From: Thiogranum longum
GTDB taxonomy: Bacteria > Pseudomonadota > Gammaproteobacteria > DSM-19610
Length of the DNA stretch: 64,000 nucleotides
Direction: 5' to 3'
Assembly (NCBI RefSeq): GCF_004339085.1
Contig: NZ_SMFX01000001.1
Span: 2,327,352-2,391,351 of the forward strand
This document shows positions 45,267 through 64,000 of this stretch, in pieces (positions within the stretch are counted from its first letter, which is position 1; each line of letters starts with the position of its first letter). A model generated the notes under the pieces. The model made no database searches and had not been told where the DNA came from. It was given only the letters and a program-made list of their open reading frames with translations. A program made the position numbers and the translations under genes.

Positions 45267-46649
45267 ATGTCGCAGGACATAACTGAAGCACTACGCGCCT
45301 CACTGGGTGACAGCCTGTTAACCGACCCGGCCGACTGCCATACCTACGGCTACGATAACAGCAAGCTGCAGGGACAACCCATGGCGGTTGCACTGCCGAC
45401 CACACACGAGCAGGTAGTCGCCGTTGTACGCGCCTGTTATGAGCATGATACTCCGCTGCTGGCACGCGGTCAGGGTACCGGGACCACCGGCGCCACAGTA
45501 CCACTGGACCGGCAATCGGTTATCATCTCGATGCACAGGATGAACCGCCTGATTGAACTCGACCGGGACAACCGGCTGGTAGTGGTCGAGCCCGGTATCA
45601 CCAACCAGCAGGTACAACAAACTGCTGCCGGGCAGGGGTTCTTCTGGCCACCCGATCCAACCAGTGCTGCCGTCTGCACCGTGGGCGGTAACCTTGCCTA
45701 TAACTCGGCAGGACCACGCGCCGTCAAGTATGGAACACCACGCGAAAACACGCTGGGACTTTGTATTGTCACCGGCGACGGGCGCACCCTGCGCACCGGT
45801 GTACGCACTACTAAGGGCGTGGTCGGTTATGACCTGACACGCCTGATGATCGGTTCCGAAGGCACGTTGGGCATCATCACTGAAGCTACGCTCAAACTCA
45901 CCCCGCTGCAGCCCGCCAAACGCACCCTGCGCGCGGAATACCGTGATATGCACAGCGCGGCCAAAGCCGTTGCAAATATCATGGCCAGCCCGGTCACACC
46001 CTGCGCGCTGGAATTCATGGATGGTAACGCTATCGATATGGTGCGCGACGAACTGGCGGGCAGACTGGCCAGTGACACAGGTGCGCTGTTAATTATTGAA
46101 GTTGATGGGCTTGCCTCCCAGATCGATGAGCTTGCCGAACAGGTTTCCGACAGCGCAAAAACTACCGGCTGCCTTGCTGTACACCAGGCAAGCAATGAAG
46201 CAGAAGTGGCTGCACTCTGGGATGTCCGCAAAGCGCTGTCACCCGCCCTGCGACGTGTGGCGCCGAAAAAGATCAATGAAGATGTTGTGGTGCCGGTATC
46301 CTGCATCCCGGTACTGGTCGACAGATTGTCTGAATTTTCTAAAACACATGGCATTCATATCGTTAACTTCGGGCACGCCGGGAATGGCAACCTGCACGTC
46401 AACCTGCTCTACAATCCTGATGATGCAGGCCAACAAAAGCGGGCAGAGGCCTGTCTTGAAGATGTCTTCAGCACAGTACTCGAACTGGGCGGTACATTGT
46501 CCGGTGAGCACGGCATCGGCCTGGTGAAACGCGACTGGGTGGCAAAGGAAATCGGGCCTGACAGTCTGCAGCTCATGCACGCTATCAAGCGACAGTTCGA
46601 TCCGAAAGGCATACTCAACCCGGGAAAAGCACTACCGCCTATCGATTGA
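45267..46649 (+). CDS. GlcD-type FAD-linked oxidase
   Basis: 460 residues. FAD_binding_4 domain (about 40-180) with GQGTGTTGATVPL, then the FAD-oxidase_C domain with GHAGNGNLHVNLLY and GGTLSGEHGIGLVK. Likely oxidises a 2-hydroxy acid (glycolate or D-lactate); no GlcE/GlcF partners are adjacent, so a D-lactate dehydrogenase role is equally possible. It overlaps the convergent SDR gene by 11 nt. Confidence 0.9.
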   Translation: MSQDITEALRASLGDSLLTDPADCHTYGYDNSKLQGQPMAVALPTTHEQVVAVVRACYEHDTPLLARGQGTGTTGATVPLDRQSVIISMHRMNRLIELDRDNRLVVVEPGITNQQVQQTAAGQGFFWPPDPTSAAVCTVGGNLAYNSAGPRAVKYGTPRENTLGLCIVTGDGRTLRTGVRTTKGVVGYDLTRLMIGSEGTLGIITEATLKLTPLQPAKRTLRAEYRDMHSAAKAVANIMASPVTPCALEFMDGNAIDMVRDELAGRLASDTGALLIIEVDGLASQIDELAEQVSDSAKTTGCLAVHQASNEAEVAALWDVRKALSPALRRVAPKKINEDVVVPVSCIPVLVDRLSEFSKTHGIHIVNFGHAGNGNLHVNLLYNPDDAGQQKRAEACLEDVFSTVLELGGTLSGEHGIGLVKRDWVAKEIGPDSLQLMHAIKRQFDPKGILNPGKALPPID

Positions 46650-47580
46650 CTGATGACCAGCCAGGTGTTTTCAGCAAACCTTCCCTGAGCTGCACGCGCG
46701 GCTGCCAGCCAAGCGCCTCACTCAACCCTGCATTATCGCAAACCCAGTCCATATGACGCAGTTCGCGCAGCTTCTCCGGTGTCAGCATTGGCGCATAACC
46801 AAACCAGCGTGACATACGGGTATTCAGCCAGGCGGGAATATCCAGCAACAGTGAAGGTATCTCGACCGGACGGACGGTACGGTGACAAATTTCTGAAGCA
46901 ATCTGGCATACATCACTCCAGTTATATCCGCCTGTTCGGCCATCGTGTAACGTATAGATACCTGGCGCCACAGTCTCCCGCTCCAGCCAGGCGGCAACCA
47001 GCTCGGCAATGTCATCGACAAAGACCATCGAGAAGCGTGAGGCCTTGTTACCCGGCACCGGTGCAAACCCTTTTGCCATAGCACGAAACAATGGCAGCAT
47101 TTCACGGTCACCGGGGCCGTACACTGCAGGTGGTCGCAGCGCAAACCAGTCAAGCCCTGTACCCTGTTGCTCAAGCAACGCTTCACCGCGTCGCTTGCTG
47201 GCTGCATAGAAAGATAACGCCGGCTCACGTGCAGCAAGTGAGGACAACGCGAAAAGGCGCGGTGCTTTTTCAGCACGCTGTATGGCATCCAGCAGACGGG
47301 ACAACCCGCCCACATTAACGCTGTCGAAGTCCTCCTGGCTGGCACCGCGCACAACGCCGGCGCAATGAATGACGGCACTGACGCCATCAACAAGGCGCGC
47401 CAGGGCAGCTTCATCATGAACATCGCCACGAATGATTTCAGGATTGATTTTGTCGAACCCGGTATCGCCTGCCGGTGAACGCATCAACAGGCGTAACTGC
47501 CAGCCTTGTGCATGGAGGTGTCTGCAAATACTGCGGCCGATGAAACCGCTGGCACCGGTAACGGCGATTTGTTTTGTCAT
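46639..47580 (-). CDS. NAD-dependent epimerase/dehydratase (CerR-like reductase candidate)
   Basis: 313 residues, extended SDR: nucleotide loop TGASGFIGRSI, the pair YAASKRRGE (catalytic Tyr and Lys) and LRPPAVYGPGDREM. Nothing in the sequence fixes the substrate. Its place beside a fatty acyl-AMP ligase and a GNAT-like acyltransferase recalls Caulobacter CerR, a reductase in ceramide synthesis; this link is by context and recall. It is 122 nt downstream of the ligase on the same strand, beyond a hairpin terminator. Confidence 0.85.
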   Translation of the reverse strand: MTKQIAVTGASGFIGRSICRHLHAQGWQLRLLMRSPAGDTGFDKINPEIIRGDVHDEAALARLVDGVSAVIHCAGVVRGASQEDFDSVNVGGLSRLLDAIQRAEKAPRLFALSSLAAREPALSFYAASKRRGEALLEQQGTGLDWFALRPPAVYGPGDREMLPLFRAMAKGFAPVPGNKASRFSMVFVDDIAELVAAWLERETVAPGIYTLHDGRTGGYNWSDVCQIASEICHRTVRPVEIPSLLLDIPAWLNTRMSRWFGYAPMLTPEKLRELRHMDWVCDNAGLSEALGWQPRVQLREGLLKTPGWSSVNR

Positions 47581-47649
47581 CAGCGCTTCACTCTGGAAAA
47601 GATTCCATTCCCGGAAAAACTTCGGTCATTTCAATTTTTCTGTCTTCCT

Positions 47650-47679
47650 GAAACGAAATAACCGGCCGAAGCCGGTTAT
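47650..47679 (-). terminator. Hairpin terminator after the fatty acyl-AMP ligase
   Basis: A perfect 9-bp stem (ATAACCGGC / GCCGGTTAT, 47658-47679) closed by a CGAA tetraloop, followed on the minus strand by TTTCGTTTC. The U tract is imperfect, so termination may be partial and allow read-through into the SDR gene. Confidence 0.5.
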
Positions 47680-47702
47680 GTTATCTCGGGATGACACACA
47701 AA

Positions 47703-49529
47703 TCAGACTGAACCCTGTTTCAACTCCGGCTCACTGGTTGCAGCCTCCAGATTACTGATGTCATGAGACTCAATGAAGTTCTGGCGCGCCTTGGAGCGCG
47801 ATAACTTGCCGGACGAAGTCCGCGGCAGGGTATGCAACGGCACCAGTTCGACAAATACATCAATACCCAGCTCCATGTGCACCAGACGGTTCAGCCGGTC
47901 AGCCAGGTCAGCGCGCTTGACGGGATCAGACTCACGACACTGGACGACCAGTATGCAAAGTTCATCGTTACCAACGCCCGGAACTGAAAATGCCAGTGCA
48001 TCGCCAATACGAACTTCCGGCTGGTGTTCGGCCAGGTACTCAAGATCCTGCGGCCAGATGTTGCGGCCATTGATAATAATCAGGTCCTTCTTGCGGCCCG
48101 TGATAATCAGGTTACCGTTCACGCGATAGCCTATATCGCCGGTATTCAACCAGCCATCATCGGAAAGACAGGCTTCGGTTTCTTCAGATGCATTGAAGTA
48201 ACCGGACATCACGCTCGGACCACGCACGAAGATGGAACCACTCAGGCGATCCGATAAAACCTTGCCTTCTTCATCACGAATCTCGACTTCGTATTCGGGC
48301 AGGGGCTGTCCACAGTCTACAAAGCAACGCGCACGACCGGGATTCTCGGAGAGATGGATCGGCAGGGCTTCCTGATGATCGGAATGGTGATCTCCGTCAA
48401 CACAGTCTGTCGAGTGTTTTTCAAACAGGGGAGCGAAACTGATCGCCAGAGAACACTCGGCCATGCCATAGCAGGCGAGGAAGGCCCTGTCGTCAAAACC
48501 TGCCGGAGCCAGTGCCTTGGCAAAACGTGTCAGTGTTTCGGAACGAATCATTTCCGCTCCAACGCCTGCAACGCGCCAGTTACTCAGGTCATATTTTTCC
48601 GCCTCGCCCGGACGCAAACGGCGGGTGCACAGCTCGTAACCGAACGGAGGCCCGAATGAAATAGTCGCTTTCGTCTGCGTCATCAGGTTCAGCCACTGAC
48701 GGGGGCGCATGGCGAATTCACGCGTATCGAGGTAATCGACAGAAATCTGTGAGGCAACCGGCACCAGCACCAGACCCACCAGGCCCATGTCGTGGTAGAA
48801 CGGCAACCAGGAGAAACAGCGATCACCCGGGCCGATGCAAACGCCATGGACGATAATACCCGCCAGATTGCTCATTACCGCACCCTGCTTGATGACAACG
48901 CCGCGCGGGAATCTTGTGCTGCCTGATGTGTACTGGATGTAGGCAGTGTCGCCCGGCTGGATAGACGGAAAGTCGATATCCGTTTCCGGCAATGCATCGA
49001 ACACATCGGGTGAACCAATCAGCTTCAGGCCCAGACCTTCACCGGCTTCCTCAAGGAATGAGGCGTAACCTTCCGGCGCCATCGCAACGGAAGCCATGCT
49101 GCTCTCGAGCAGGCCACGCAACTGGGTGACATATACCGTGTGACCGCCAAGGTTTACCGATGCCGGTAATGCAACGGGAATCAGCCCGGCATACTGGCAG
49201 GCAAAAAAGAATCTCAGGAAATCCGGGTTGGTTTCTGCCACCAGTGCAACGCGATCGCCCTTCTGCAGGCCCATGCCGAGCAGCTTGCGAGCGAGTACGC
49301 GAGATGCTTCGCGCAACTCGGCGTAAGGCATGGTCGCATACAGCTTGCCCCGACCCGTGTAGAAGTTAGCACCCGTATCGCCCCTGGCAGCATAGTCGAG
49401 TGCTTCGGGCAGGGTTGCAAAATCAGCGGCACGAAACGGCAGATTGTGTAAAGTTGGTGTCGATTCAGCGCCCAAAAGTCTTTTCCCTGTTTGAGGATTG
49501 TGTTCGGTCCCCGTCACAGACAGGAACAC
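47703..49529 (-). CDS. Fatty acyl-AMP ligase / acyl-ACP synthetase
   Basis: 608 residues, GTG start. The adenylate loop is YIQYTSGSTRFPRG, followed by SWLPFYHDMGLVG, ACYGMAECSLAIS and WLNTGDIGY, typical of fatty acyl-AMP ligases (FAAL), which load fatty acids onto carrier proteins and not CoA. In Caulobacter a similar acyl-ACP synthetase serves ceramide synthesis. No ACP gene is adjacent. It is divergent from the GNAT-like acyltransferase across a 475-nt regulatory gap. Confidence 0.9.
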   Translation of the reverse strand: MFLSVTGTEHNPQTGKRLLGAESTPTLHNLPFRAADFATLPEALDYAARGDTGANFYTGRGKLYATMPYAELREASRVLARKLLGMGLQKGDRVALVAETNPDFLRFFFACQYAGLIPVALPASVNLGGHTVYVTQLRGLLESSMASVAMAPEGYASFLEEAGEGLGLKLIGSPDVFDALPETDIDFPSIQPGDTAYIQYTSGSTRFPRGVVIKQGAVMSNLAGIIVHGVCIGPGDRCFSWLPFYHDMGLVGLVLVPVASQISVDYLDTREFAMRPRQWLNLMTQTKATISFGPPFGYELCTRRLRPGEAEKYDLSNWRVAGVGAEMIRSETLTRFAKALAPAGFDDRAFLACYGMAECSLAISFAPLFEKHSTDCVDGDHHSDHQEALPIHLSENPGRARCFVDCGQPLPEYEVEIRDEEGKVLSDRLSGSIFVRGPSVMSGYFNASEETEACLSDDGWLNTGDIGYRVNGNLIITGRKKDLIIINGRNIWPQDLEYLAEHQPEVRIGDALAFSVPGVGNDELCILVVQCRESDPVKRADLADRLNRLVHMELGIDVFVELVPLHTLPRTSSGKLSRSKARQNFIESHDISNLEAATSEPELKQGSV

Positions 49530-49678
49530 CCCAAAAAAGTTTCAGTAATTACCGACCGGTAGATTGTGGTGCCATGTAGTACACGCCATAAGCGCAAACA
49601 CTCACTCTGCCTGGCGGCGTTGTTTTTTCACAACAACAAAGCCTGTGCCTGACCGTTCAGTCAACCGGTTGTGAATTA

Positions 49679-49693
49679 TTCCTACAATAGGAA
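49679..49693. promoter_or_regulatory. Palindrome overlapping a -10-like box
   Basis: TTCCTA and TAGGAA are separated by CAA; the spacer side reads TACAAT on the + strand. A repressor bound here could block the promoter. The match is by eye only. Confidence 0.3.
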
Positions 49694-49749
49694 GAAAACA
49701 CAATACTTTTTCAACGTTTTTTCGGCACTTGTTGGACATATTTCATAAA

Positions 49750-49767
49750 TGTCGCCAATTCGCGACA
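49750..49767. promoter_or_regulatory. Operator-like inverted repeat
   Basis: TGTCGC and GCGACA are separated by CAATTC. The 18-nt symmetric site is the size expected for a dimeric helix-turn-helix regulator. No regulator gene is adjacent. Confidence 0.35.
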
Positions 49768-50004
49768 GAAATAATACAACACTTTGGGTTAAACCCTGTA
49801 AACGCGGGGGTTAGCATACCCAACAAATACCGGTTGGTTACTTAAGCAAAATTCAGACCATATCTTCACGGCCATTTTTGCGATTCGCGAGTATAAGTGA
49901 TGACGCATAAAGAAAATGTGACGCCCACCCCATTATACCTCAAGTAGCGACGCACCCGCTGGCCCGGTATGATCAGCGCCCCAAATACCAATTAGCGAAG
50001 CTCG

Positions 50005-51150
50005 ATGCAAGCTGACAAGGATGATCTCGATGTCCGCTGCGTGGACAACAAGGCCCGGCTCAAGGACTTCATTCAATTGCCATGGTCCGTCTACCGTAAC
50101 GACCCCCACTGGGTTGCCCCGTTACTGATCGAGCAGAAACAGCGCTATAGCCGAAAAAACCCGTTTTTCGACCACGCGCGCTGGCGTGGCTGGGTCGCGT
50201 ATCGAAACAACAGCCCTGTTGGCCGCATCAGCGCACAAATCGACCAGCTGTTCCTGGATCGGTATAAAGATCCGGTCGGCTATTTCGGCAGCCTTGAGGC
50301 CGAAGACGACCCGGCTGTTTTCAGCGCATTGTTCCAGGCTGCAGAGGCCTGGCTGGCGAATGAGGGCATGTCGCACGTCACGGGGCCATTTACCCTGTCC
50401 ATCAACGAGGAAGCCGGCTTGCTGGTTGACGGCTTTGATACACCACCCTGCATCATGATGGGGCACAACCCGCCCTACTATGGCGCGCATGTCGAGGCCA
50501 ACGGTTATACACCGGCCCGCGACCTGCTGGCCTACCATCAGCCACCCACCTACCAGTTCACACCTACCGTGAAACGCCTGCTGGAGCGGTTATCCGGCCG
50601 CATACGGCTGCGCCAGCTCAACCGAAAGAAACTCGACGAGGAACTGGCCATCCTGCGGCATATCTTCAACGATGCCTGGTCGGAAAACTGGGGCTTTGTC
50701 CCTTTCACCGAGGCAGAGTTCAGGGAAGTCGGCAAAGCCATGACCCTGTTGCTGGATGATGACTTTGTACAGATCGCCGAAGTCGACGGCGAACCCGCGG
50801 CGATGATTATTGGTCTGCCCGATATCAACCAGGCCATCAAGGATCTGAACGGCCGATTGCTGCCACTGGGCTGGTTGAAGCTGCTCTGGCGCATCAAGGT
50901 GCGCTACCCTGACCGCGCACGCATCCCGCTGATGGGCGTGCTGAAAAAATACCAGCATACCCGGCTCGGGCCGGCACTTGCCTTTGCGGTAACCGAGGCA
51001 TTGAGAACGCCTTTCATACGCCGCGGTATCAAAGAGGTGGAAATGTCATGGATACTCGAAAACAATCAGGCCATGCGTAATATCATCGAAAAACTGGGTG
51101 GCGTCGAATACAAACGCTACCGCCTGTATGAAAAGAACCTGCATGACTGA
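50005..51150 (+). CDS. GNAT-like N-acyltransferase (YghO/bCerS-type candidate)
   Basis: 381 residues. The N-terminal part has PWSVYRNDPHWVAPL and RISAQIDQLF, the middle GPFTLSINEEAGLLVDGFD and PPYYGAHVEANGY, and the C-terminal GNAT-like end WILENNQAMRNIIEKLGG. I associate this family with E. coli YghO and, less firmly, with the bacterial ceramide synthase that N-acylates a sphingoid base. Next to an acyl-AMP ligase and a lipid kinase that assignment is attractive but unproven. It overlaps the nucleotidyltransferase gene by 8 nt. Confidence 0.75.
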   Translation: MQADKDDLDVRCVDNKARLKDFIQLPWSVYRNDPHWVAPLLIEQKQRYSRKNPFFDHARWRGWVAYRNNSPVGRISAQIDQLFLDRYKDPVGYFGSLEAEDDPAVFSALFQAAEAWLANEGMSHVTGPFTLSINEEAGLLVDGFDTPPCIMMGHNPPYYGAHVEANGYTPARDLLAYHQPPTYQFTPTVKRLLERLSGRIRLRQLNRKKLDEELAILRHIFNDAWSENWGFVPFTEAEFREVGKAMTLLLDDDFVQIAEVDGEPAAMIIGLPDINQAIKDLNGRLLPLGWLKLLWRIKVRYPDRARIPLMGVLKKYQHTRLGPALAFAVTEALRTPFIRRGIKEVEMSWILENNQAMRNIIEKLGGVEYKRYRLYEKNLHD

Positions 51151-51937
51151 TACCGGGTTTACTGCCATCATTCTCGCTGCTGACCGTCACCGCGACGATC
51201 CGCTGATACGGCACGCCGGGGTATGTACCAAGGCGCTGGTCGATATTAATAACCGCCCCATGATCCAGCATGTTGTCGATGCGTTGACCAATACCCGGCA
51301 GGTCAGGGACATTGTGCTGTGCGGCCCGGCCAGAGCCTGTCTTGAGCAATCCCCGGTGCTGATAGAGATGATCGAGTCAGGTGTCGTACGCTGGCTTGAA
51401 CCCGCCGACAGCCCGGCGAGCAGTGCCTACCAGGCCCTGAAGCAATTACCGGAAGGTCAGCCGGCACTGATCACGACAGCCGATCACCCGCTGCTGCGAC
51501 CGGATATTCTCGACGACTTTCTGCAACGCGCCAGCGCAACCGGCGCCGATGTGGCGGCGGGTGTCACCACCATCGACGAAATTCACAGGAAATTCCCGGG
51601 TGCACGCAAGACCGTGATGCGTTTCAGCGACGACGGCTACTGCGGCTGCAATCTGTTCGCCTTCCTGACACCGCGCTCACACCGGGTCGCCAATGCCTGG
51701 CGCAGCGTGGAGAAACAACGCAAGAACCCGCTGTACATCATTCGGCAACTGGGGCTGGGCTCGGTACTGCGATACAGCCTCGGCATGCTGCGCATGGAAA
51801 CGGCGGCAAGACGTCTGTCGGAAAAGCTGGATGTCGATATCAAACCGGTACTGCTACCGTTTCCGGAAGCCGCCATCGACGTCGATACCGTCGAGGATCA
51901 GCGTTTTGTAGAAAGTATCCTCGGCAGCGACAAATGA
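51143..51937 (+). CDS. MobA/GlmU-like nucleotidyltransferase
   Basis: 264 residues from the ATG at 51143. GT-A-type nucleotidyltransferase features: IILAADR near the N-terminus, TKALVDINNRPMIQHVV (Lys of the sugar-nucleotide site) and ITTADHPLL (metal-binding Asp). The usual GxGxR loop is reduced to LAADRHRDD. Caulobacter ceramide loci include such an enzyme (CpgD, recalled as a phosphoglycerate cytidylyltransferase). It overlaps the convergent phosphoesterase by 40 nt. Confidence 0.82.
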   Translation: MTDTGFTAIILAADRHRDDPLIRHAGVCTKALVDINNRPMIQHVVDALTNTRQVRDIVLCGPARACLEQSPVLIEMIESGVVRWLEPADSPASSAYQALKQLPEGQPALITTADHPLLRPDILDDFLQRASATGADVAAGVTTIDEIHRKFPGARKTVMRFSDDGYCGCNLFAFLTPRSHRVANAWRSVEKQRKNPLYIIRQLGLGSVLRYSLGMLRMETAARRLSEKLDVDIKPVLLPFPEAAIDVDTVEDQRFVESILGSDK

Positions 51938-52860
51938 TGTTCATGCGCCAGTGAAAAGCCATGCTGCTCGCGCTGGTATGCCCTTACCTGCACATCGAGA
52001 CGCCACTGATGTTCTTCCGGCCGAACCTCGTAAAGATAATATTGCGCCGCCCGCCCGGGCTTGCGCCCGATGGCAGAGGCCGACGGTATGCCGAATACCG
52101 GGATATCGCCACCCGCACGCTGAATATGACCCTGCAGGGCACGGTGACTGTGTCCGTGCAGCACCAGTTCGGCACCGTATTCCGACAGAACCTCACCCAG
52201 CGCAGTCGTATCGGTCAGCCGCTTGCGCCATTTCTCCGCGCCCTCCACGGCAGGATGGTGCAGCAACACAACCCGGAACAACCCCTGCGATCCGGTTTCG
52301 CGCAACACCACCTCCAAGCGTTCGATTTGCGCAGCACCCAGCTTGCCGGTCGCCAGAAACGGTGCTGTGGTCACCGCACTCGACAATCCGATAAAGGCCA
52401 CACCCTGGCGAATACGCAGGCTGGGAAACAGCAACCTGTCGCCGCCCTGCGACGGCTGTCCGGCTGTCGCGTCCGAGCGCATCCACGGCTCCCAGAGTGC
52501 AAACGTATCTGACCAGGTATGGCGTGCGTAGGCATCATGGTTTCCGGGCACAATGGTCACATCACCGCCCTCACCCAGCCGCTCCAGCCAGTGACGCGCC
52601 TGGCGGAATTCATCCGGCAGACCGATATGCGTCAGGTCGCCGGTCACCACGATGTGTTGCGGGTGCAGGCCGCGCATATCCTCGACCAGCGCATCGAGTA
52701 CCTCGCGACGGTGCTCGGCACGCCGGCCACGCCGCCATGACAGGTAGCCCAGTATCCGCTTGCTCAGCAACTGGTTCCAGCGCACGGCTTCGAGCGTGGT
52801 GAGATGGGGGTCCGACAAGTGCGCAAACCGCAGACCAGCAGGTGGGGAAACATCATTCAT
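51898..52860 (-). CDS. Calcineurin-like metallophosphoesterase
   Basis: 320 residues. Dimetal motifs are complete: HLSDPHLT (I), VVTGDLTHIG (II), VPGNHDAYA (III), LLHHPAVEG (IV) and VLHGHSHRA (V). It resembles UDP-diacylglucosamine or cyclic-nucleotide phosphodiesterases in size; the substrate is unknown. In this setting it may hydrolyse a nucleotide-activated or phospholipid headgroup intermediate. It is transcribed opposite to its neighbours. Confidence 0.92.
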   Translation of the reverse strand: MNDVSPPAGLRFAHLSDPHLTTLEAVRWNQLLSKRILGYLSWRRGRRAEHRREVLDALVEDMRGLHPQHIVVTGDLTHIGLPDEFRQARHWLERLGEGGDVTIVPGNHDAYARHTWSDTFALWEPWMRSDATAGQPSQGGDRLLFPSLRIRQGVAFIGLSSAVTTAPFLATGKLGAAQIERLEVVLRETGSQGLFRVVLLHHPAVEGAEKWRKRLTDTTALGEVLSEYGAELVLHGHSHRALQGHIQRAGGDIPVFGIPSASAIGRKPGRAAQYYLYEVRPEEHQWRLDVQVRAYQREQHGFSLAHEHHLSLPRILSTKR

Positions 52861-52954
52861 GGCAGAAAATTATATCGTAAAGGTACTTATCCCGGGTTTG
52901 CTGGGTTAGGATGCCGTTCAGGAAATAGTACCCTATTCAGACCGACGAATACGC

Positions 52955-53953
52955 TTGAATCCCACACACACTTTCAATGATCGCCCGCGCATCGGCCTGA
53001 TCTCCAATCCGCACAGTCGCCGCAACCGCGCTGCACTGGCAGATATCGAGGCCATGATTGCTGCAAAAGGCAGCATTCTTCATCGCATCACGCCATCCAT
53101 TGAGGATATCCCTGCCGCATTAAAAGCGTTTGCCGAACAGGACATCAACGTCGTTGCGATCAATGGCGGCGATGGCACCACCGCGCAAGTCCTTGCCGCG
53201 TTACTCAACGCCTCGCCTTTTCAGAAGCAGCCCGCCGTGGTGCTGCTGCCAGGTGGCACCACCAACATGAATGCGGCTGATGCAGGCATGCACGGCCGCC
53301 TCGACAAACAGATCGGGAAGCTCTGTCGCTGGTCCGATGGTGAAGCACTCTCCGTCGAGCCTCTGACGCGACCGGTGCTGCGTATCGATGGCGCAGTCGG
53401 TCAGGACACCCTGTACGGCATGTTTTTTGGCGCCGGCTCGATCATCATCAATGGTATCGAACACTGCACAAGCCATATTCACAACGTCGGGCTTACCGAT
53501 GAAATCGGTCCCGGCGTAACACTGCTGCGAGCGGTCTGGGGCGTGCTGCGCGGAGATCCGCAATTCACCGCACCGATCAATGTCAGCCAGCGATCTGACG
53601 GCCAGGACGAGGCGGAGGAAAAGCAACTTGCTATACTGCTGGTCACCGGCCTGGAACGACTTTTCCTCGGCATACACCCCTGGTGGGGACGGGAACAACG
53701 GCCCCTGCACTGCACCTGTATAGAGAAGCCCGCCAAAGGACTGCTGAGAAAACTGCCGGGACTGCTACGCGGGAAGCCCGGCAAGGACGCCACACCGGTA
53801 AACGGCTATGTCAGCCACAATATCCGACAACTCGAACTGTACATGGACACAACCTTCACCATCGACGGGGAACTCTACCAGGCAAGCCGCGAGCACGGGC
53901 CAATCCGTGTCAGCCACGGTGGCGATATTGAATTTCTGAAGATCGGCTCATGA
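52955..53953 (+). CDS. Diacylglycerol kinase-family lipid kinase
   Basis: 332 residues, TTG start; no ATG precedes the first conserved strand IGLISNPHSRRN. The ATP-site INGGDGTTAQVLAALL and LPGGTTNMNAADAG are clear. The family phosphorylates diacylglycerol, sphingoid bases or ceramide; the Caulobacter ceramide kinase CpgB belongs to it. Stop and next ATG overlap (ATGA), so it is coupled to the following gene. Confidence 0.9.
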   Translation: MNPTHTFNDRPRIGLISNPHSRRNRAALADIEAMIAAKGSILHRITPSIEDIPAALKAFAEQDINVVAINGGDGTTAQVLAALLNASPFQKQPAVVLLPGGTTNMNAADAGMHGRLDKQIGKLCRWSDGEALSVEPLTRPVLRIDGAVGQDTLYGMFFGAGSIIINGIEHCTSHIHNVGLTDEIGPGVTLLRAVWGVLRGDPQFTAPINVSQRSDGQDEAEEKQLAILLVTGLERLFLGIHPWWGREQRPLHCTCIEKPAKGLLRKLPGLLRGKPGKDATPVNGYVSHNIRQLELYMDTTFTIDGELYQASREHGPIRVSHGGDIEFLKIGS

Positions 53954-54909
53954 TGCCATCCGACACAGGCAAACCGGGGCAACACCTCGCCGACCTCACG
54001 CCAGTCCCTGAACATCCGGCACTGCAAACGCTGATCGATGCACTGCGCAGACGTTACGGTGAAAATCTTGTCGCTGTCCTGTTCTATGGTTCCTGCCTGC
54101 GCAGCGGAGATCCCTACGACGGACTGGTCGACCTCTACCTGATTGTCGACAGCTACCGCGAGGCCAACAGTTCCTTACCCCGTGCGATATGGAACTGGCT
54201 GCTGCCACCCAATGTGTTTTATACCGAGGTGGCCCACGAAGACCACACCGTACGCTGCAAGTATGCCGTGCTGACACTCGCCGACCTGCAGCGTGGCACC
54301 TCGCGCCGCTGGTTTCATTCCTACCTGTGGGGGCGTTTCTGCCAGCCCGTGGCCGTTGCCTGGCAACGTGATAACGACAGCCGGGAAAAGATCGACCACT
54401 GCCTGCTGCAGGCCGTCATCACTTTCCTGCGACGTGCCCTGCCGGCACTGCCGCCCGAAGGCGACCTGCTGTCCCTGTGGCGCGATGGTCTGACACTCAG
54501 TTACCGCACCGAACTACGGCCGGAATCTGCAAACCGCGCCGGCGAACTGGTCAGTGCAAACCTGCACTATTACGAAACCGTCACGCAGTATGCGGCGGAT
54601 ACATTGACCCCGAACTTCCTGCTGGAACCTTCAGCAACCGGCCTGCGCTATCGCACAAACTATACTGCAATCACCCGTCTGGTGACTGGCTTCGCCTGGA
54701 AGCTTCGCACGGTTCAGGGCAAACTGCTGTCCGTCGCGCGCCTGCTGAAAGCCCTGTTTACTTTTGATGGCGGACTTGATTACATCGCCTGGAAACTGGA
54801 ACGTCATTCCGGCGTCAGCGTGGAAATTCCCGATCGTGTACGCCGCTGGCCACTGATTTTTATCTGGGGCATGTTCTGGGACCTGTACCGACGCGGAGCC
54901 TTTCGCTAA
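53950..54909 (+). CDS. Nucleotidyltransferase-fold protein of unknown function
   Basis: 319 residues. Near residue 43 LFYGSCLRSGDPYDG then DLYLIVDSY reads as a pol-beta-type nucleotidyltransferase motif (GS-x-D...D-x-D), similar in outline to the mitochondrial CDP-DAG synthase TAM41, but the D-x-D is D-L-Y here. The C-terminal half is helical and Arg-rich. Between a lipid kinase and an ELM1 protein it might activate a phospholipid with CTP; that is inference. Confidence 0.6.
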   Translation: MMPSDTGKPGQHLADLTPVPEHPALQTLIDALRRRYGENLVAVLFYGSCLRSGDPYDGLVDLYLIVDSYREANSSLPRAIWNWLLPPNVFYTEVAHEDHTVRCKYAVLTLADLQRGTSRRWFHSYLWGRFCQPVAVAWQRDNDSREKIDHCLLQAVITFLRRALPALPPEGDLLSLWRDGLTLSYRTELRPESANRAGELVSANLHYYETVTQYAADTLTPNFLLEPSATGLRYRTNYTAITRLVTGFAWKLRTVQGKLLSVARLLKALFTFDGGLDYIAWKLERHSGVSVEIPDRVRRWPLIFIWGMFWDLYRRGAFR

Positions 54910-54911
54910 CC

Positions 54912-55979
54912 ATGGAAAATGAAATGTCAAAACAGACGCCGCGCATCTGGCTGGTGACTGGTGACAAGCCGGGCGATAACGCACAGATCGAGATTATTGC
55001 CGAGGCACTGGGGCTGCCCTGCGAAATCAAACGCATGCTCCCCAGGCCAGAGTATGTACTGGGAAAACCCCGCTTCAAGGCATCGCTCTACCATCTCGAC
55101 CCGGAACGTTCCGATTCACTGGAACCCCCCTGGCCAGACTTGATAATTACCATTGGACGGCGACCCTCAATGGCGGCGCTGTGGATTCAACAACAATCCG
55201 GAGGCCACAGTAAAATTGTGCTGCTGGGAAGACCCAAGCGTTGGATGAACCGCTTCTCGCTGATCATCGTGCCATCACAGTACCGGATGCCCGACGACCC
55301 AAAAGTCCTGCAGCTGGACTTTCCGCTGATGCGCAGCAACGAACAAGCCATTGCCAGGGCCTCACAAGAGTGGGCAAAACGCTTCGCGGAACTGCCTCGT
55401 CCCATTACTGCACTGATGGTTGGTGGACAAACCAAACCTTTCCGCTTTGATGCAGACGCCGCCCGGCAATTACTGGCACAGACAAGCACCCTGTCGGATA
55501 ACGGCTTCCTGTACATCACCACCAGCCGGCGCACACCGGAGGCAGTAATCCAGGTATTTCGGGAAAATCTCCCTTCCAATGCAAAACTGTACTGTTGGTC
55601 GCCGGACAATACGGACAACCCCTACCTGGCATTGCTGGGCCTGGCCGACCGCTTCATCGTCACTGGTGACAGCATGTCGATGATGATTGAAGTGGCCCGC
55701 CTGGGTAAGCCACTGGCGATATACCCCCTCCCTGTCCAGCGCAATATATTCAGAAAACTCCAGCACAGGCTGGGTAACTGGCTGCGCGGAAAAAAAGCGG
55801 GCGAACTCCTGTACAAAACAGGGATGGTTGGATATACACGCGACCTGACGGCTATACATCAATTGCTTTACGACAAGGGCCTGGCTGTACCGCTGGGACA
55901 GACGCTTCCCTCACCCGGCAAAAAACCCGAGGATGAACTGCAACGTGTCGTAGTATCTATCAACAAGCTGATAAACTGA
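54912..55979 (+). CDS. ELM1-family protein (predicted glycosyltransferase-like)
   Basis: 355 residues. The family signature ALLGLADRFIVTGDSMSM followed by EARLGKP-type ...VARLGKPLAIYPL is present, with the N-terminal WLVTGDKPGDNAQIE. PF06258 proteins have a GT-B-like fold; bacterial ones have no defined function. ATG 2 nt after the preceding stop, so it ends the same transcript. A role in adding the headgroup to a phosphorylated lipid is possible. Confidence 0.85.
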   Translation: MENEMSKQTPRIWLVTGDKPGDNAQIEIIAEALGLPCEIKRMLPRPEYVLGKPRFKASLYHLDPERSDSLEPPWPDLIITIGRRPSMAALWIQQQSGGHSKIVLLGRPKRWMNRFSLIIVPSQYRMPDDPKVLQLDFPLMRSNEQAIARASQEWAKRFAELPRPITALMVGGQTKPFRFDADAARQLLAQTSTLSDNGFLYITTSRRTPEAVIQVFRENLPSNAKLYCWSPDNTDNPYLALLGLADRFIVTGDSMSMMIEVARLGKPLAIYPLPVQRNIFRKLQHRLGNWLRGKKAGELLYKTGMVGYTRDLTAIHQLLYDKGLAVPLGQTLPSPGKKPEDELQRVVVSINKLIN

Positions 55980-56006: not shown

Positions 56007-56924
56007 ATGACACTAGTTTCAACCAAGACATTACGCTCCCTGCTACAACGCGCGCTTTTTCTTTTCCCCAGGTCAACAAGAGTTTCCGTTGACCGCTGGA
56101 TGCGCGGAAAGAAAGAACACAAGAAGCTGAAAAAAGCCGACTTTGCCGTGGTTTCATTGCCCAAAAGCGGAAGAACCTGGCTAAGGGTCATGCTGTCCAG
56201 GTATTACCAGCAGAAATTCGACCTTCCGGAACACTCCGTAATCGGCTTTGATAATTTCTACCAGGAAAATCATGCAGCACCGCGCATCCTGTTTTCCCAC
56301 GACAATGTATTACGCGATTTCACCGGCAACCTGGACAACAAGAAAGATTATTATCAAACAAAAACCATTCTGATGGTACGTGACCCGAGGGACCTGGTCG
56401 TTTCACAGTTCCACCAGTGGCGTTACCGCACCAACCCCTCCAAACGTCGCCTCCATTCCGAACTGAACATTGAAGATAACGTGGAAGTATTCGACTTCGC
56501 CATGAACAGCTTCCACGGAATTCCTCGAAATATACGTTTCCTGAACAGCTGGCAAAGAGAACTGGGGAACATGAAGGAGGTACTCGTCGTCCGCTACGAG
56601 GATATGCGCAGGAACCCTCAGGAAGCTATGGCGCATATTCTGTCCTTTCTCGGGGAAACACCCAAAGCGGAACAGGTCAGGGATACTGTCGAGTACGCAA
56701 AATTCGAAAACATGCGCAAAATGGAAGAAAAGCAGACTTTCCGCACAGACAGCAAACAACTGTTTGCCAGAGACACTTCGAACCCCGACTCACTCAAGAC
56801 GCGTCGTGCAAAGATTGGTGGTTTTACAGACTACCTGAGCCAGGAGCAGATCAACACCATCAATGCAATGATTGACAGTCAGCTTTCACCGGAGTTTGGC
56901 TACAACCAGAACCAGGACACCTGA
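56007..56924 (+). CDS. PAPS-dependent sulfotransferase, paralogue A
   Basis: 305 residues. The 5'-phosphosulfate loop is LPKSGRTWLRVM and the 3'-phosphate site MVRDPRDLVVSQF, with RYEDMRRNPQEA further on, the standard sulfotransferase layout. Paralogous to the gene at 57993 (shared VDRWMRGK start region and HDN motif). It transfers sulfate from PAPS to a hydroxyl group, perhaps on a lipid or surface glycan. Confidence 0.93.
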   Translation: MTLVSTKTLRSLLQRALFLFPRSTRVSVDRWMRGKKEHKKLKKADFAVVSLPKSGRTWLRVMLSRYYQQKFDLPEHSVIGFDNFYQENHAAPRILFSHDNVLRDFTGNLDNKKDYYQTKTILMVRDPRDLVVSQFHQWRYRTNPSKRRLHSELNIEDNVEVFDFAMNSFHGIPRNIRFLNSWQRELGNMKEVLVVRYEDMRRNPQEAMAHILSFLGETPKAEQVRDTVEYAKFENMRKMEEKQTFRTDSKQLFARDTSNPDSLKTRRAKIGGFTDYLSQEQINTINAMIDSQLSPEFGYNQNQDT

Positions 56925-56926
56925 GT

Positions 56927-57814: not shown

Positions 57815-57992
57815 GTCCTGTATTCTTTATTTAGTCCTGATCAACCGGGGCAGTGTACACCCGGCATAAATCTGGTTTGGCCGGCCCTCCAGGGGCACAC
57901 CCTGAAAACACTTAAATACAGGCTGCGCGGGGTGATTTGAATGTGTTAAAGTGCGCGCCTTACAGCATACCAAATGTTCAACACCCCGACAC

Positions 57993-58928
57993 ATGCATAC
58001 TTTCATCAAGAAACTTACCAGATTCATAGTCTTAGGTCTTGTTTTCTTTCTTCCGAAAGAAAAGAAAATCCGCATCGACCGCTGGCTGCGCGGCAAGGAA
58101 GAATACCGCAAGCTGAAACAGGCCGATGCCGTCATCGTGTCATTCGGCAAAAGCGGGCGCACCTGGGTGCGTGTGATGATATCGCGCTTCTACCAGGTCA
58201 AACACGGCTTGTCTGAACGGCACCTGATCGGCTTCGATAACCTGCACAAAAAGAACCCGGCGATTCCGAAGCTGTTCTTTACCCACGACAACTACATCAA
58301 GGATTACACGGGCAACACGGACAGCAAGGCGGACTTCTACAATAAAAAGGTCGTACTGCTGATTCGCAACCCGCTGGACGTGGCCGTTTCCCAGTTTTTC
58401 CAGTGGAAGTACCGCATGCGACCGGGCAAGAAAGCGCTGAACGACTACCCGGACCACGGTACGGATATCTCTATTTACGATTTCGTCATGCACCCTGCCG
58501 GTCTGCCGAAAATCATCGACTACCTGAACCTCTGGGCACGGGAAGCGGAAAACGTCGGCCAACTGCTCATCGTACGCTACGAAGACCTGCGCTCCGATAC
58601 CGAGGGTGCCTTGCGACGCATTGTCGAGTTCATCGGCACACCCGGCAGCGACGAGGAAATCCGTGAAGCCGTGGAATTCGCCTCGATCGACAACATGCGC
58701 AAAATGGAACAAAAACGTACTTTCTGGTTGTCCGGCAGCCGCATGGTGCCGAAAGACCGCAAAAACCCGAACTCCTACAAGGTTCGCAAGGCCAAGGTCG
58801 GCGGCTACCGCGACTATTTCGACGACGGGCAAATTCGTGCGATGAATGAACTACTTGGCGAACGCCTGGACCCTGTTTTTGGCTATAAAGCACAGACAGA
58901 AACCCCGGACGAAGCCTCCAGCGCGTGA
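57993..58928 (+). CDS. PAPS-dependent sulfotransferase, paralogue B
   Basis: 311 residues from the ATG at 57993 (MHTFIKKLTRF). The 5' loop is FGKSGRTWVRVM, with Gly where Pro is usual, and the 3' site LIRNPLDVAVSQF. It shares IDRWLRGK, THDN and KVGGYRDYF with paralogue A, so the pair arose by duplication and now flanks an unrelated sulfotransferase. Confidence 0.92.
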   Translation: MHTFIKKLTRFIVLGLVFFLPKEKKIRIDRWLRGKEEYRKLKQADAVIVSFGKSGRTWVRVMISRFYQVKHGLSERHLIGFDNLHKKNPAIPKLFFTHDNYIKDYTGNTDSKADFYNKKVVLLIRNPLDVAVSQFFQWKYRMRPGKKALNDYPDHGTDISIYDFVMHPAGLPKIIDYLNLWAREAENVGQLLIVRYEDLRSDTEGALRRIVEFIGTPGSDEEIREAVEFASIDNMRKMEQKRTFWLSGSRMVPKDRKNPNSYKVRKAKVGGYRDYFDDGQIRAMNELLGERLDPVFGYKAQTETPDEASSA

Positions 58929-59009
58929 ACTGCAGCACACTAAGCCGCTGGAATTCCTGAATAAATCCGCTACAATAGCGGCACTATATCGATGGCAGCT
59001 CTGATGTGT

Positions 59010-59079
59010 CGTCATACCGGCGTATGCCGGTATCCATTGTCGTTGAAACCCCTGGATTCTGGCATGCGCCAGAATGACG
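59010..59079. repeat. REP-like dispersed palindromic repeat, copy 2
   Basis: CGTCATACCGGCGTATGCC... to ...AGAATGACGG, the same two-hairpin layout as at 38092-38160 with compensating changes in the second stem (TTCTGGC / GCCAGAA). It sits in the 204-nt gap between sulfotransferase B and the first GT-A-like gene. Confidence 0.8.
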
Positions 59080-59132
59080 GGGAATAAATCAGAGTTTCCT
59101 TAACAGTAACGGGTACGAGGCCAGGCGATTTC

Positions 59133-60071
59133 ATGGATCATTGTGTTTTTATACAGACCAACCACAAACAGATTGTCGGCGCCCTGGTGGCCGAGTATGC
59201 GTTGCGCCGCAACTCGCAGAACAATGACAAATTCGATGTGCGCATCGTCAACACCAACGACTACCCGTTCTTCAAGGCGCGCGAAGGCCAGCTGTACCTG
59301 CGTGACGGCGTCAAGCGTACGTGGCTGAACGATGACCTGCAGTCCTTCACCCCGACCCGTTTCATGCCGCCCGAACTGATGGGCTACAAGGGCCGCGCCG
59401 TGGTCATCGACCCGGACATCTTCGCCATTGCCGATATCTGGGAACTGCTGTCACGCGACATGCAGGGCAAGGCCATCATGTGCCGCCCGCGTTCCGGCAC
59501 CAAGGGCATCATCGACCGCTGCCTGGCTTCCAGCGTCATGCTGCTGGACTGCGAAAAACTGCCGCACTGGAAAGTAGAAGAATCCTTCAACGAAATGTTC
59601 GAGTTCAAGCGTGACTACATGCCGTGGATCTGCCTGCGCATGGAAGACCGCGATACCATCGGGCTGTTCGAGAATGTCTGGAACGACTTCGACAAGCTGA
59701 CGCCGGAAACGAAAATGCTGCACGTCACACGGCGCAAGACCCAGCCGTGGAAAGCCGGCCTGCCGATCGACTGGCGCCCCGCCGAACGTTTCCGCCTGTT
59801 CCCGCCGGTGGCCTGGGCCATGCGCGCACGCCGCAAGATCTTTGGTGAATATGGCCTGCTGGGCAAGTACAAGGAACACCCGGACACCAACCAGACCCAC
59901 CTGTTCTTTGGCCTGCTCAAGGAATGCCTGGAGAAGGGTATTGTGACGGAAGACATGCTGCGCGAAGAAATGAAGCACAATCATGTGCGTCACGATGCCT
60001 TTGAAGTGCTGGAAAGAACACCGGACCTGGCCCCGCCAGGTCACTCACCGCTGAATCTGTCTGCCGCCTGA
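59133..60071 (+). CDS. GT-A-like glycosyltransferase, tandem copy 1
   Basis: 312 residues, no signal peptide or membrane span. AVVIDPDIFAIADIWELL (DPD at 93-95) resembles the DxD strand of GT8-type enzymes, and DLQSFTPTRFMPPEL precedes it. The N-terminal VFIQTNHKQIVGALVAEYAL is distinctive. I do not recognise a characterised family. A close paralogue follows; nearby sulfotransferases and a GT4 gene suggest a glycan or glycolipid role. Confidence 0.7.
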   Translation: MDHCVFIQTNHKQIVGALVAEYALRRNSQNNDKFDVRIVNTNDYPFFKAREGQLYLRDGVKRTWLNDDLQSFTPTRFMPPELMGYKGRAVVIDPDIFAIADIWELLSRDMQGKAIMCRPRSGTKGIIDRCLASSVMLLDCEKLPHWKVEESFNEMFEFKRDYMPWICLRMEDRDTIGLFENVWNDFDKLTPETKMLHVTRRKTQPWKAGLPIDWRPAERFRLFPPVAWAMRARRKIFGEYGLLGKYKEHPDTNQTHLFFGLLKECLEKGIVTEDMLREEMKHNHVRHDAFEVLERTPDLAPPGHSPLNLSAA

Positions 60072-60074
60072 TTT

Positions 60075-60116
60075 ATTGACGTAGATCAAATAATTTTCGA
60101 CAACTGACCGCTAGGA
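60075..60116 (+). promoter_or_regulatory. Putative FNR/Anr-type class II promoter
   Basis: TTGAC-GTAG-ATCAA at 60075-60088 differs from the FNR consensus TTGAT-N4-ATCAA at one base. Placing it at -41.5 puts the -10 hexamer at 60111-60116, which reads TAGGAT, and the start near 60123, 30 nt before the ATG of copy 2. Copy 1 has no such site. Confidence 0.55.
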
Positions 60117-60152
60117 TGTCGCGATCCCGTACCGCACCCGGAGATCGCGCAC

Positions 60153-61100
60153 ATGGACCATTCGGTTTTTATCCAGACCAATCACAAACAGATCACCGGC
60201 GCCTACGTCGCCGAACACGCCATCCGTCGTTATTCACAGCATAACGACAAGTTCGACGTCCACATCATCGAAAAAAAAGATTACCCGTACTTCGACAAGC
60301 GCGAAGGCCAGTTGTACCTGCGCGACGGTGTAAAACGAAAGTGGCTTAACGATGACCTGCAGTCCTTTACGCTGACTCGCTTCATGCCTCCCGAACTGAC
60401 AGGCTACAAGGGCCGGTCGGTGGTTATTGACCCTGATATTTTCGCCGCCAGTGATGTGTGGGACCTGTTATCGCGCGACATGCAGGGCAAGGCTGTCATG
60501 TGCCGCCCGCGTTCCGGCTCCAAGGGTATTATCGATCGCTGCCTGGCATCCAGCGTGATGCTGCTGGATCACGAGAAACTGACGCACTGGAATGTGGAAC
60601 AGTGGTTTGACGAACTGTTCAGTTTCAAGCGCGATTACATGCCGTGGATCTGCCTCAAGTACGAAGACCGCGAGACAATTGGCCTGTTCGAGAACCAATG
60701 GAATGATTTCGACAAATTTACGACCGAAACCCGCATGCTGCACACCACCCGGCGAAAAACCCAACCCTGGAAAGCCGGTCTTCCGATAGACTGGCGTCCA
60801 GCGGAAAAATTCCGCCTGTTCCCGCCGGTTGCATGGCTGATGCGCGCCAGGCGCCGCTTCTTCGGCGAATACGCCCTGCTGGGCCACTACAAGGTTCACC
60901 CCGACCCGAACCAGGAAGCCTTTTTCTTCGGCTTGTTGAAGGAATGCATCAACGAGGGCAAGGTGAGTGAAGCGTTCGTCCGCGAGCAAATGGCACAGAA
61001 CCATGTGCGTCATGATGCCTTTGAGGTACTGGATCGTACGCCGGACCTGCCACCCGCACCGACTCATCCACTTTCTGTCCCACTGGTCAAAGCCGCCTGA
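60153..61100 (+). CDS. GT-A-like glycosyltransferase, tandem copy 2
   Basis: 315 residues, closely similar along the full length to copy 1 (same start MDHxVFIQTNHKQI, same DPD and MCRPRSG motifs), so a recent duplication. Differences cluster at FEVNQ-type surface stretches and the C-terminus (HPLSVPLVKAA). GGAG 10 nt before the ATG. Preceded by its own FNR-like promoter, so the copies may be expressed under different oxygen conditions. Confidence 0.7.
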   Translation: MDHSVFIQTNHKQITGAYVAEHAIRRYSQHNDKFDVHIIEKKDYPYFDKREGQLYLRDGVKRKWLNDDLQSFTLTRFMPPELTGYKGRSVVIDPDIFAASDVWDLLSRDMQGKAVMCRPRSGSKGIIDRCLASSVMLLDHEKLTHWNVEQWFDELFSFKRDYMPWICLKYEDRETIGLFENQWNDFDKFTTETRMLHTTRRKTQPWKAGLPIDWRPAEKFRLFPPVAWLMRARRRFFGEYALLGHYKVHPDPNQEAFFFGLLKECINEGKVSEAFVREQMAQNHVRHDAFEVLDRTPDLPPAPTHPLSVPLVKAA

Positions 61101-62533: not shown

Positions 62534-63675
62534 CTGATCCCGACAAACAACGCGAGCGGAAACCAGAAAAACAACCACAGCTCCTTGGGCCGAACAATCA
62601 GGCGATCTATATCGGGAGCAATCACGACAAACGCAAATACCAGTAATGGCACAATATATTTTGCCCGCTTGCACCCGTAACGGATTATGTGCCTGAAAAA
62701 TCCGGCGACCATAACAAGAAATATCGCCGCACCTGCAATCCCGCCATCGCGCAAAAAACCCAGGTAACTGCTGTGGGCATGCTGAAACATCCTCCGCCCT
62801 ACCGGCACCGTCGTGTCAGACAAATACCCATGCCCGAACCACGGCGCTTCTGCAATGTGTGCCAGCACGTTTTCCCAGATCAGTGGGCGCCAGTGCAAAT
62901 CCATATAAAAGCGATCAAACACGCCGGGAAAAGCGCTGAGTGCCACCACCATGATCATGCTCAACAGCACAAGCATGGCCAGCGCAGCCCTGCGACCAAA
63001 ACAGAAAGGCATGGCAATGAAGGCCGCCAGCAAGCCCAGCATGGCTGTGCGACTGTGGGTTAGCAGAATTGCGGCCGCCAGAACAAGGAAAGCCGCACCG
63101 TATAGGACACGCACCGGCAAAACCCGTGACACTACGGCAAAGTGCAATGCCAGCAAGGCAAATGCCCCATAGGCGCAACCGGCCAAAATAGCATTATCGA
63201 TGCGGCCAATCGGCTCCAGTCTGGACATGGGGAATGGACGGGTGGCGTACCAGCTGAATATAGAAACAACCGCCAACAATGCGATGCCTGCCACGAGCAC
63301 TCTCATCAGGAAATCAAATTCTTCCGGGTACCGGCGCACCAGGCTCGCTGTGACAATAATAAAGGTGACAACCTGCACCCACCATCCTGCCAGGGTGGAA
63401 AAATCAGCCCGCGTCAGGTTGTCACTCCATAGGCCACTCAACAACTGGTAAGACAACCACACCAGCAATAATTTGAACAGGCCGTTTTTCCAGAGCAGCG
63501 GGAGCTCCCTGTATGCCATAAACAGGCCGGGCAACAGCACAGCTGCATAGTAGAACTTGTAGTGCAGTGGACGATCCGGGAAAAAGAAAAAACCCAGCAG
63601 GAAAACGCCATAGCTGACAAAAACCCACAAACTCAGTCGATCAGAAAACAACGCTCTCTCACTCAAGCCCGTCAT
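62494..63675 (-). CDS. O-antigen ligase / Wzy-like membrane protein
   Basis: 393 residues with about 10-12 membrane helices. The Wzy_C/WaaL region includes LTHSRTAMLGLL, and the periplasmic loop WRPLIWENVLAHIAEAPWFG to HAHSSYLGFLRDGG holds the conserved Arg and His. It could ligate O-antigen to lipid A core or polymerise a capsule; the two families cannot be separated by sequence alone. ATGA overlap with the upstream gene. Confidence 0.9.
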   Translation of the reverse strand: MTGLSERALFSDRLSLWVFVSYGVFLLGFFFFPDRPLHYKFYYAAVLLPGLFMAYRELPLLWKNGLFKLLLVWLSYQLLSGLWSDNLTRADFSTLAGWWVQVVTFIIVTASLVRRYPEEFDFLMRVLVAGIALLAVVSIFSWYATRPFPMSRLEPIGRIDNAILAGCAYGAFALLALHFAVVSRVLPVRVLYGAAFLVLAAAILLTHSRTAMLGLLAAFIAMPFCFGRRAALAMLVLLSMIMVVALSAFPGVFDRFYMDLHWRPLIWENVLAHIAEAPWFGHGYLSDTTVPVGRRMFQHAHSSYLGFLRDGGIAGAAIFLVMVAGFFRHIIRYGCKRAKYIVPLLVFAFVVIAPDIDRLIVRPKELWLFFWFPLALFVGISQQEAVRDETSDS

Positions 63676-64000
63676 ACCTTATCCGTCTTTTCACGATTCA
63701 TCATTTGTCTGACGCCTTCCACGGCATAATCAAGTCCCTTCCCCCCCGAAGCCTGTACTTCCTGCACAACGGATTGCCCGGCCCAGGCCGCAACGCCGGA
63801 CTGTACGAGTGCAGACTGAATACGCGTTATGTCCCTGCGCATCCGTTCCGGGGCGATCAGCATGGCAAGACGGTGCGTCAGCGGTTTGAAGCGGAAGTTA
63901 TGCGCGACCAACCACCACGGCCTGTCGACAGACTGGCTTGCATCGGCCGGACTATCCGACAGATCGAAGATATAAAGTGGTCTTTGCGCCGCCGCCGCTT
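63672..64000 (-). CDS. C-terminal part of an unrecognised protein (partial)
   Basis: The open frame enters from the right edge and runs about 108 residues to TGA at 63672. Visible stretches include PLYIFDLSDSPAD, RPWWLVAHNFRFKPL and a helical tail ending MNREKTDKV. No motif identifies the family. Its ATGA overlap with the O-antigen ligase-type gene suggests a role in the same glycan pathway. Confidence 0.7.
   Translation of the reverse strand, partial: AAAAQRPLYIFDLSDSPADASQSVDRPWWLVAHNFRFKPLTHRLAMLIAPERMRRDITRIQSALVQSGVAAWAGQSVVQEVQASGGKGLDYAVEGVRQMMNREKTDKV

Follow-up and report, generated by a model that had tools for sequence, protein, structure and literature searches.

A probable sphingolipid synthesis and export locus with three ELM1-type proteins in the gammaproteobacterium Thiogranum longum

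The closest described counterpart of the locus reported here is the ceramide and ceramide-diphosphoglycerate (CPG2) cluster of Caulobacter crescentus, CC_1168-CC_1152 (PMC11324152; PMC12275187), to which a cluster of Azotobacter vinelandii has been published as orthologous (PMC11324152). The head groups of bacterial sphingolipids vary widely in their chemistry. Even in Caulobacter, what follows ceramide-1-phosphate is unsettled: in the literature of 2025-26, CpgC turns ceramide-1-phosphate into ceramide-phosphoglycerate (CPG) by a mechanism called unidentified, one paper noting an InterPro CDP-diacylglycerol (CDP-DAG) synthase domain for CpgC, and CpgA is a CDP-alcohol phosphatidyltransferase. 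Here we describe a region of about 25 kb in Thiogranum longum that is very probably a complete locus for sphingolipid synthesis and export in a gammaproteobacterium. It extends from the CerR gene at 46639 to the serine palmitoyltransferase gene (spt) ending at window-equivalent 71504, where the window is the whole analysed stretch of 64,000 nucleotides (G000:C1:2327352-2391351, within the complete 2.92-Mb genome).

A sequence-only reading of the window had recognized eight of these genes, from CerR to the first ELM1 gene, as a ceramide or CPG-like lipid locus. All eight are intact open reading frames (Table 1), and their family assignments were borne out by profile matches to short-chain dehydrogenase/reductase (SDR), fatty acyl-AMP ligase (FAAL), GNAT, MobA-like, phosphoesterase, DAGK and ELM1 families; no Pfam family matches the 319-aa protein itself, which is a Tam41-type nucleotidyltransferase by model. 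The genes are orthologous to, and largely syntenic with, the Caulobacter and Azotobacter CPG clusters, and the relatives of each protein sit in spt-containing loci, including that of A. vinelandii, which upholds the ceramide reading. The comparison with Caulobacter rests on its published gene order, on genomes sharing that order, and on A. vinelandii, whose genes were matched by tblastn only; window genes match those published for A. vinelandii at 35-59% identity. The published order CC_1165-CC_1152 is followed in genomes G440, G349 and G101, so that the kinase corresponds to CpgB (CC_1160), the 319-aa protein to CpgC (CC_1161), the phosphoesterase to CC_1158, the GNAT protein to the ceramide synthase CerS (CC_1154) and the MobA-like protein to CC_1153. 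When all locus proteins were compared by tblastn with congener, other proteobacterial and A. vinelandii loci, a constant core emerged: FAAL, CerR, acyl carrier protein (ACP), Spt, CerS, the cerS-linked nucleotidyltransferase, the phosphoesterase, the DAGK-family kinase and the 319-aa protein. The order FAAL-CerR-ACP-Spt / CpgC-CpgB / phosphoesterase / CerS-nucleotidyltransferase recurs in other genomes. Because the same gene set is kept in nearly all examined congeners and beside spt in many other proteobacteria, its arrangement is not a product of chance.

Spt and ACP had been reported as missing, and this is true inside the window only. When the whole genome was searched for members of the fold-type I aminotransferase family, an AONS-type enzyme was located at C1:2397797, and an ACP family search placed a carrier protein directly upstream, its end 3 bp before spt and the serine present in its GLTSLQ motif. 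The adjoining pair lies 14 kb downstream of ELM1a, in the same locus and just beyond the window edge; the apparent lack of a serine palmitoyltransferase is thus an artefact of that edge. The literal reading, a ceramide-like locus without Spt and ACP that is fed by a non-sphingolipid base, agrees with the content of the window but is refuted by these two genes and retains next to no probability. A short ACP hidden in the gap between the FAAL and CerS genes was also considered and rejected, as no ACP-type short open reading frame is present there.

The best match of Spt in the PDB is the SPT of Sphingomonas wittichii (E 4e-129, 434 bits). Eight SPT sequences, including all Sphingomonas SPT entries, head the list with more than 400 bits each, as compared to 224 bits for the best non-SPT member of the AONS family and 197 bits for the solved cysteate-C-fatty acyltransferase; Spt and the other AONS paralogue encoded in the genome share 31% identity. 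It had been suggested that the base might be a different amino lipid, in which case the AONS enzyme would take another amino acid in place of serine for its condensation with acyl-ACP and give a non-sphingoid base. Specificities within the family can shift, and other members do use other substrates, the cysteate enzyme being an example, but the SPT-type scores and a full CerR/CerS/ACP/FAAL context like that of published ceramide clusters render this suggestion very improbable. Synthesis of ceramide by the locus is, in our judgement, almost certain.

The ceramide-forming genes have clear relatives elsewhere. The CerR-like protein is 45% identical to the product of an A. vinelandii gene lying between ACP and FAAL; FAAL is 52% identical to its A. 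vinelandii counterpart and 47% to that of the Caulobacter-order locus in G440, the phosphoesterase of which is 46% identical to the one described here; and CerS is 55% identical to A. vinelandii CerS. Of 398 Pseudomonadota genomes sampled, 43 have CerS, often adjoining spt, CerR and FAAL; among 17 congeneric genomes it is present in 16, as fragments only in two of them. Its closest named match (89%) is in a metagenome-assembled genome (MAG) labelled Thiohalobacter sp., a gammaproteobacterial name, and Thiogranum is the label on another congener. CerS is lacking from two genomes (G018 and G019) that share the family but not the genus, which implies gain or loss of the locus within the family. 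The occurrence of such a locus in a gammaproteobacterium, initially thought notable, is less so given the published clusters of A. vinelandii and P. luteola. More distant CerS relatives, about 52-58% identical, were observed in MAGs labelled Nitrospirota, Desulfobacterota, Rokubacteria and Methylomirabilota (L126-L132, L138-L139, L142-L144, L146, L148, L150-L152), often with a full spt locus; this suggests that the ceramide pathway is widely spread beyond Proteobacteria, although errors of MAG binning are possible.

After ceramide, the next genes concern phosphorylation and activation. The kinase, 35% identical to its A. vinelandii counterpart, adjoins CpgC in nearly all loci, and CpgA where CpgA is present. 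CpgC is 44% identical to the A. vinelandii protein, and 16 of 27 orthologs match PF09139 (Tam41) at E<0.1, weakly (best 3e-6). Its AlphaFold model, a confident one (pLDDT 89.5), returned as its four best PDB folds only Tam41 CDP-DAG synthases (E about 2e-9 to 1e-8, TM 0.5-0.6; 6ig2, 6ig4 and 7ecd among the entries compared, with 7ecd and 6ig2 at about 2e-9), the top one bacterial with CTP-Mg and the other three the mitochondrial enzyme. In keeping with a nucleotidyltransferase active site, YGS and D61 are invariant in 27 sequences. Identity to Tam41 is about 15%, and the Tam41 substrate is phosphatidic acid, whereas that of CpgC is presumed to be ceramide-1-phosphate. The predicted fold supports a CTP-dependent activation step carried out by CpgC, probably on that substrate, and we consider activation of ceramide-phosphate by the locus likely. 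It also allows a direct test: CTP and ceramide-1-phosphate should yield CDP-ceramide. Sequence searches of the PDB with CpgC, CerS and ELM1a returned nothing useful.

The locus departs from the CPG2 type in its later steps. The CpgB-type kinase, CpgC and a second LptF/LptG pair are present; CpgA and a CpgD in the locus are absent. CpgA found no match in this genome or in 15 congeners. The best match in the genome (E 0.01) is a PssA-like protein, and the only three CDP-alcohol transferases are PgsA, a PgsA-like gene beside hda (hda assigned by eye) and PssA. No gene of the locus is orthologous to CpgD, whose best match lies elsewhere in the genome and is partial (109/242 aa at 35%). The MobA-like gene, one of the two nucleotidyltransferases of the sequence-only reading, was examined as a CpgD and rejected: it is the CC_1153 counterpart beside cerS, is cerS-linked in most loci examined, and elsewhere is separate from a CpgD-type gene. 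The gene probably starts from an ATG at 51143 that overlaps the last codons of cerS; its longest open reading frame opens with GTG at 51098. Since CpgA is absent and the locus holds no CpgD ortholog, conversion to CPG2 is not expected.

What the locus holds instead is three ELM1 proteins (PF06258 E-values 7e-57, 2e-55 and 3e-66 for ELM1a, b and c): ELM1a directly 3' of cpgC, ELM1b against lptF2, and ELM1c against acp-spt. In a tree, each groups with its own congener orthologs and one protein of Roseovarius autotrophicus (support 96/100, 99/97 and 100/97, respectively). KdoT of Acinetobacter baumannii, an ELM1 protein and proven CMP-Kdo transferase, needs the second arginine of its SRRT motif (PMC12856342). 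That residue, equivalent to R180 of KdoT, is kept in all three proteins, as SRRT in ELM1a and SART in ELM1b and ELM1c; KdoT, in contrast, acts in an LPS (lipopolysaccharide) core context rather than a sphingolipid one. In three Nitrospirota spt loci, a fusion protein of 741-760 aa beside spt joins an N-terminal X1-like domain to a C-terminal ELM1 domain (L126:1571-3796, L128:897-3179 and L152:1357-3624, all on the minus strand) and is a natural link between the two families. Together, ELM1 orthology, the module shared with Roseovarius, the KdoT arginine and the X1-ELM1 fusions point toward sphingolipid glycosylation, though they do not prove it.

Between ELM1a and Spt lie sulfotransferases, X1 and X2, a family 4 glycosyltransferase (GT4), an O-antigen ligase, ELM1b, LptF2, LptG2, an MsbA-like ABC exporter and ELM1c. 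X1 has no Pfam match; its best folds are GlyE, LgtC and glycogenin, from a low-confidence model, and a fused homologue matches PF01501 weakly. The LptF/LptG genes are an extra copy, as the genome holds a separate pair at 2.31 Mb. Among congeners (loci L073-L079), the gene content of the stretch between ELM1a and X1/ELM1b (56007-63675 in the window) changes: sulfotransferases, GT4 and a Wzy-type ligase are present in some and absent from others. The sphingolipid genes on either side are constant.

The pathway that we would reconstruct from these genes is as follows. FAAL would load a fatty acid on the dedicated ACP, Spt would join the acyl-ACP with serine, CerR would reduce the ketone, and CerS would N-acylate the base to (dihydro)ceramide. 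Next, the DAGK-family kinase would form ceramide-1-phosphate, which Tam41-like CpgC may convert with CTP to CDP-ceramide or to an activated intermediate much like it. The lipid would stay at the ceramide-phosphate or CPG stage, to be extended by the three ELM1-type (KdoT-family) glycosyltransferases and the GT8-like enzyme, possibly with sulfation. Finally, the MsbA-like transporter would flip the lipid and the second LptF/LptG pair would carry it to the outer membrane. We give an even chance to a head group that is glycosylated, and possibly sulfated, instead of CPG2.

Several observations weigh against this reconstruction. No CDP-ceramide-using transferase has been identified here or in Caulobacter, and a literature search found no lipid data for the organism or genus. 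The fold assignment of X1 is weak (pLDDT 59.6, best E 1.2e-3). ELM1 also occurs in spt loci having CpgA and CpgD (Stutzerimonas, Nitrospirota), so that it is no simple replacement of the CPG2 branch. The O-antigen ligase and GT4 leave room for the ELM1, glycosyltransferase and sulfotransferase genes to serve LPS or capsule. An ordinary CPG/CPG2 locus as in Caulobacter, with unrelated enzymes for the CpgA and CpgD steps and an LPS or capsule cluster as its neighbour, would account for the latter genes; the kinase, CpgC, CC_1153-like and CC_1158-like genes are all in place for it, and ELM1 is common in LPS contexts and occurs in 60 of 355 CerS-negative genomes. We nevertheless hold it to be unlikely, in view of the lack of CpgA from this genome and 15 congeners, the position of ELM1b and ELM1c among sphingolipid genes and of ELM1a directly after cpgC, and the same three ELM1 orthologs accompanying the same sphingolipid genes in Roseovarius. 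ELM1 is more frequent in CerS genomes (17/43; p 0.0016), a comparison confounded by phylogeny and not our main evidence.

Strict exclusivity of ELM1 with CpgA/CpgD was tried as an idea and rejected: among loci of at least 13 kb, ELM1 occurs on its own in 13 and together with CpgA/CpgD in 6. No members of the ELM1a, b or c ortholog groups were seen in those 6. The CPG2-type clusters of A. vinelandii (L172:20833-21120) and Stutzerimonas kunmingensis (L137:19912-21018) were observed to end in an ELM1-like gene shortly after cpgC, apparently outside the published 17-gene set. Elsewhere, the T. longum genome encodes two more ELM1 proteins, strongly divergent and bearing SRRT motifs (L202:7665-8837 and L202:10607-11515, both minus strand; C1 about 2.776-2.779 Mb); by eye, their neighbours resemble WaaA/Kdo transferase and a lipid A acyltransferase, and they are candidates for KdoT-type LPS enzymes.

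Table 1. Genes of the T. longum locus; positions past 64000 are window equivalents outside the window.
Feature	Position	Strand	Basis
CerR-like SDR reductase, 3-oxo-sphinganine reductase candidate	46639..47580	-	PF01370 E 7.5e-25 (NAD-dependent epimerase/SDR)
FAAL / acyl-ACP synthetase, AasR counterpart	47703..49529	-	NF006624 794 bits (cut-off 600 bits)
CerS, GNAT-type bacterial ceramide synthase candidate, CC_1154 counterpart	50005..51150	+	PF00583 9e-7
MobA/IspD-like nucleotidyltransferase, CC_1153 counterpart	51143..51937	+	PF12804
Calcineurin-like metallophosphoesterase, CC_1158 counterpart	51898..52860	-	PF00149
DAG-kinase-family ceramide kinase candidate, CpgB counterpart	52955..53953	+	PF00781 (DAGK_cat)
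CpgC counterpart, 319 aa, Tam41-like CTP:ceramide-1-phosphate cytidylyltransferase candidate	53950..54909	+	AlphaFold model, fold matches
ELM1a, ELM1/KdoT-family GT-B glycosyltransferase candidate	54912..55979	+	PF06258 E 7e-57, SRRT motif
Sulfotransferase 1, variable/decorating region	56007..56924	+	PF00685
Sulfotransferase 3	57951..58928	+	PF00685
X1, GT8-like glycosyltransferase candidate with DPD motif	59133..60071	+	low-confidence model
X2, tandem paralogue of X1	60153..61100	+	77% identical to X1
ELM1b	63672..64787 (3' end, 63672..64000, in window)	-	PF06258
LptF2	64895-65962		second LptF copy
LptG2	65835-67034		second LptG copy
MsbA-like ABC exporter	67114-68844
ELM1c	68845-70035	-	PF06258
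ACP	70063-70311		PF00550 match
Spt	70314-71504 (L015:8665-9855)		SPT-type AONS enzyme

When compared with the Caulobacter cluster, the T. longum locus shares FAAL/AasR, CerR, AcpR, Spt, CerS, the CpgB kinase, CpgC, the CC_1153-type and CC_1158-type proteins and a second LptF/LptG pair. It differs in the absence of CpgA from the genome and of a CpgD ortholog from the locus, in the addition of three ELM1 proteins, a GT8-like pair, sulfotransferases and an MsbA-like exporter, and in the placement of spt-acp at its far end. The A. vinelandii and Stutzerimonas loci (L172 and L137) are likewise gammaproteobacterial, with core genes at 30-61% identity, an MsbA-like ABC protein at 48% and ELM1 near the cluster end; in contrast, they carry CpgA and CpgD and, in the stretch compared, at most one ELM1 and no phosphoesterase, X1 or sulfotransferase matches.

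The locus of R. autotrophicus (L184), an alphaproteobacterium, is of the same variant as that of T. longum. It holds Spt, ACP, CerR, FAAL, CerS, the nucleotidyltransferase, the metallophosphoesterase, the kinase, CpgC, the ABC exporter, ELM1a, b and c, an X-type glycosyltransferase and a sulfotransferase, and within the 21 kb compared it has neither CpgA/CpgD nor LptF2/LptG2; gene order differs between the two. Its X-type gene is 70% identical to X2 (X1 has a 67% match in the locus), its ABC exporter 56%, and its sulfotransferase matches are 51% to sulfotransferase 3 and 42% to sulfotransferase 1. We tentatively put forward the possibility that the phosphosphingolipid pathways of proteobacteria include a second class, transferable and present in Thiohalobacter-like gammaproteobacteria and Roseovarius, in which three ELM1 proteins and a GT8-like enzyme may assemble a (sulfated) oligosaccharide upon ceramide-phosphate; the product would be an LPS-like sphingolipid served by a flippase and an Lpt permease of its own. 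If true, the role of the ELM1 family, enigmatic and named for mitochondrial fission, would extend from the LPS core to sphingolipids; the module would tie the family to lipid glycosylation, and the conserved ELM1/X/sulfotransferase genes would form a second branch to set against the CPG2 branch of Caulobacter.

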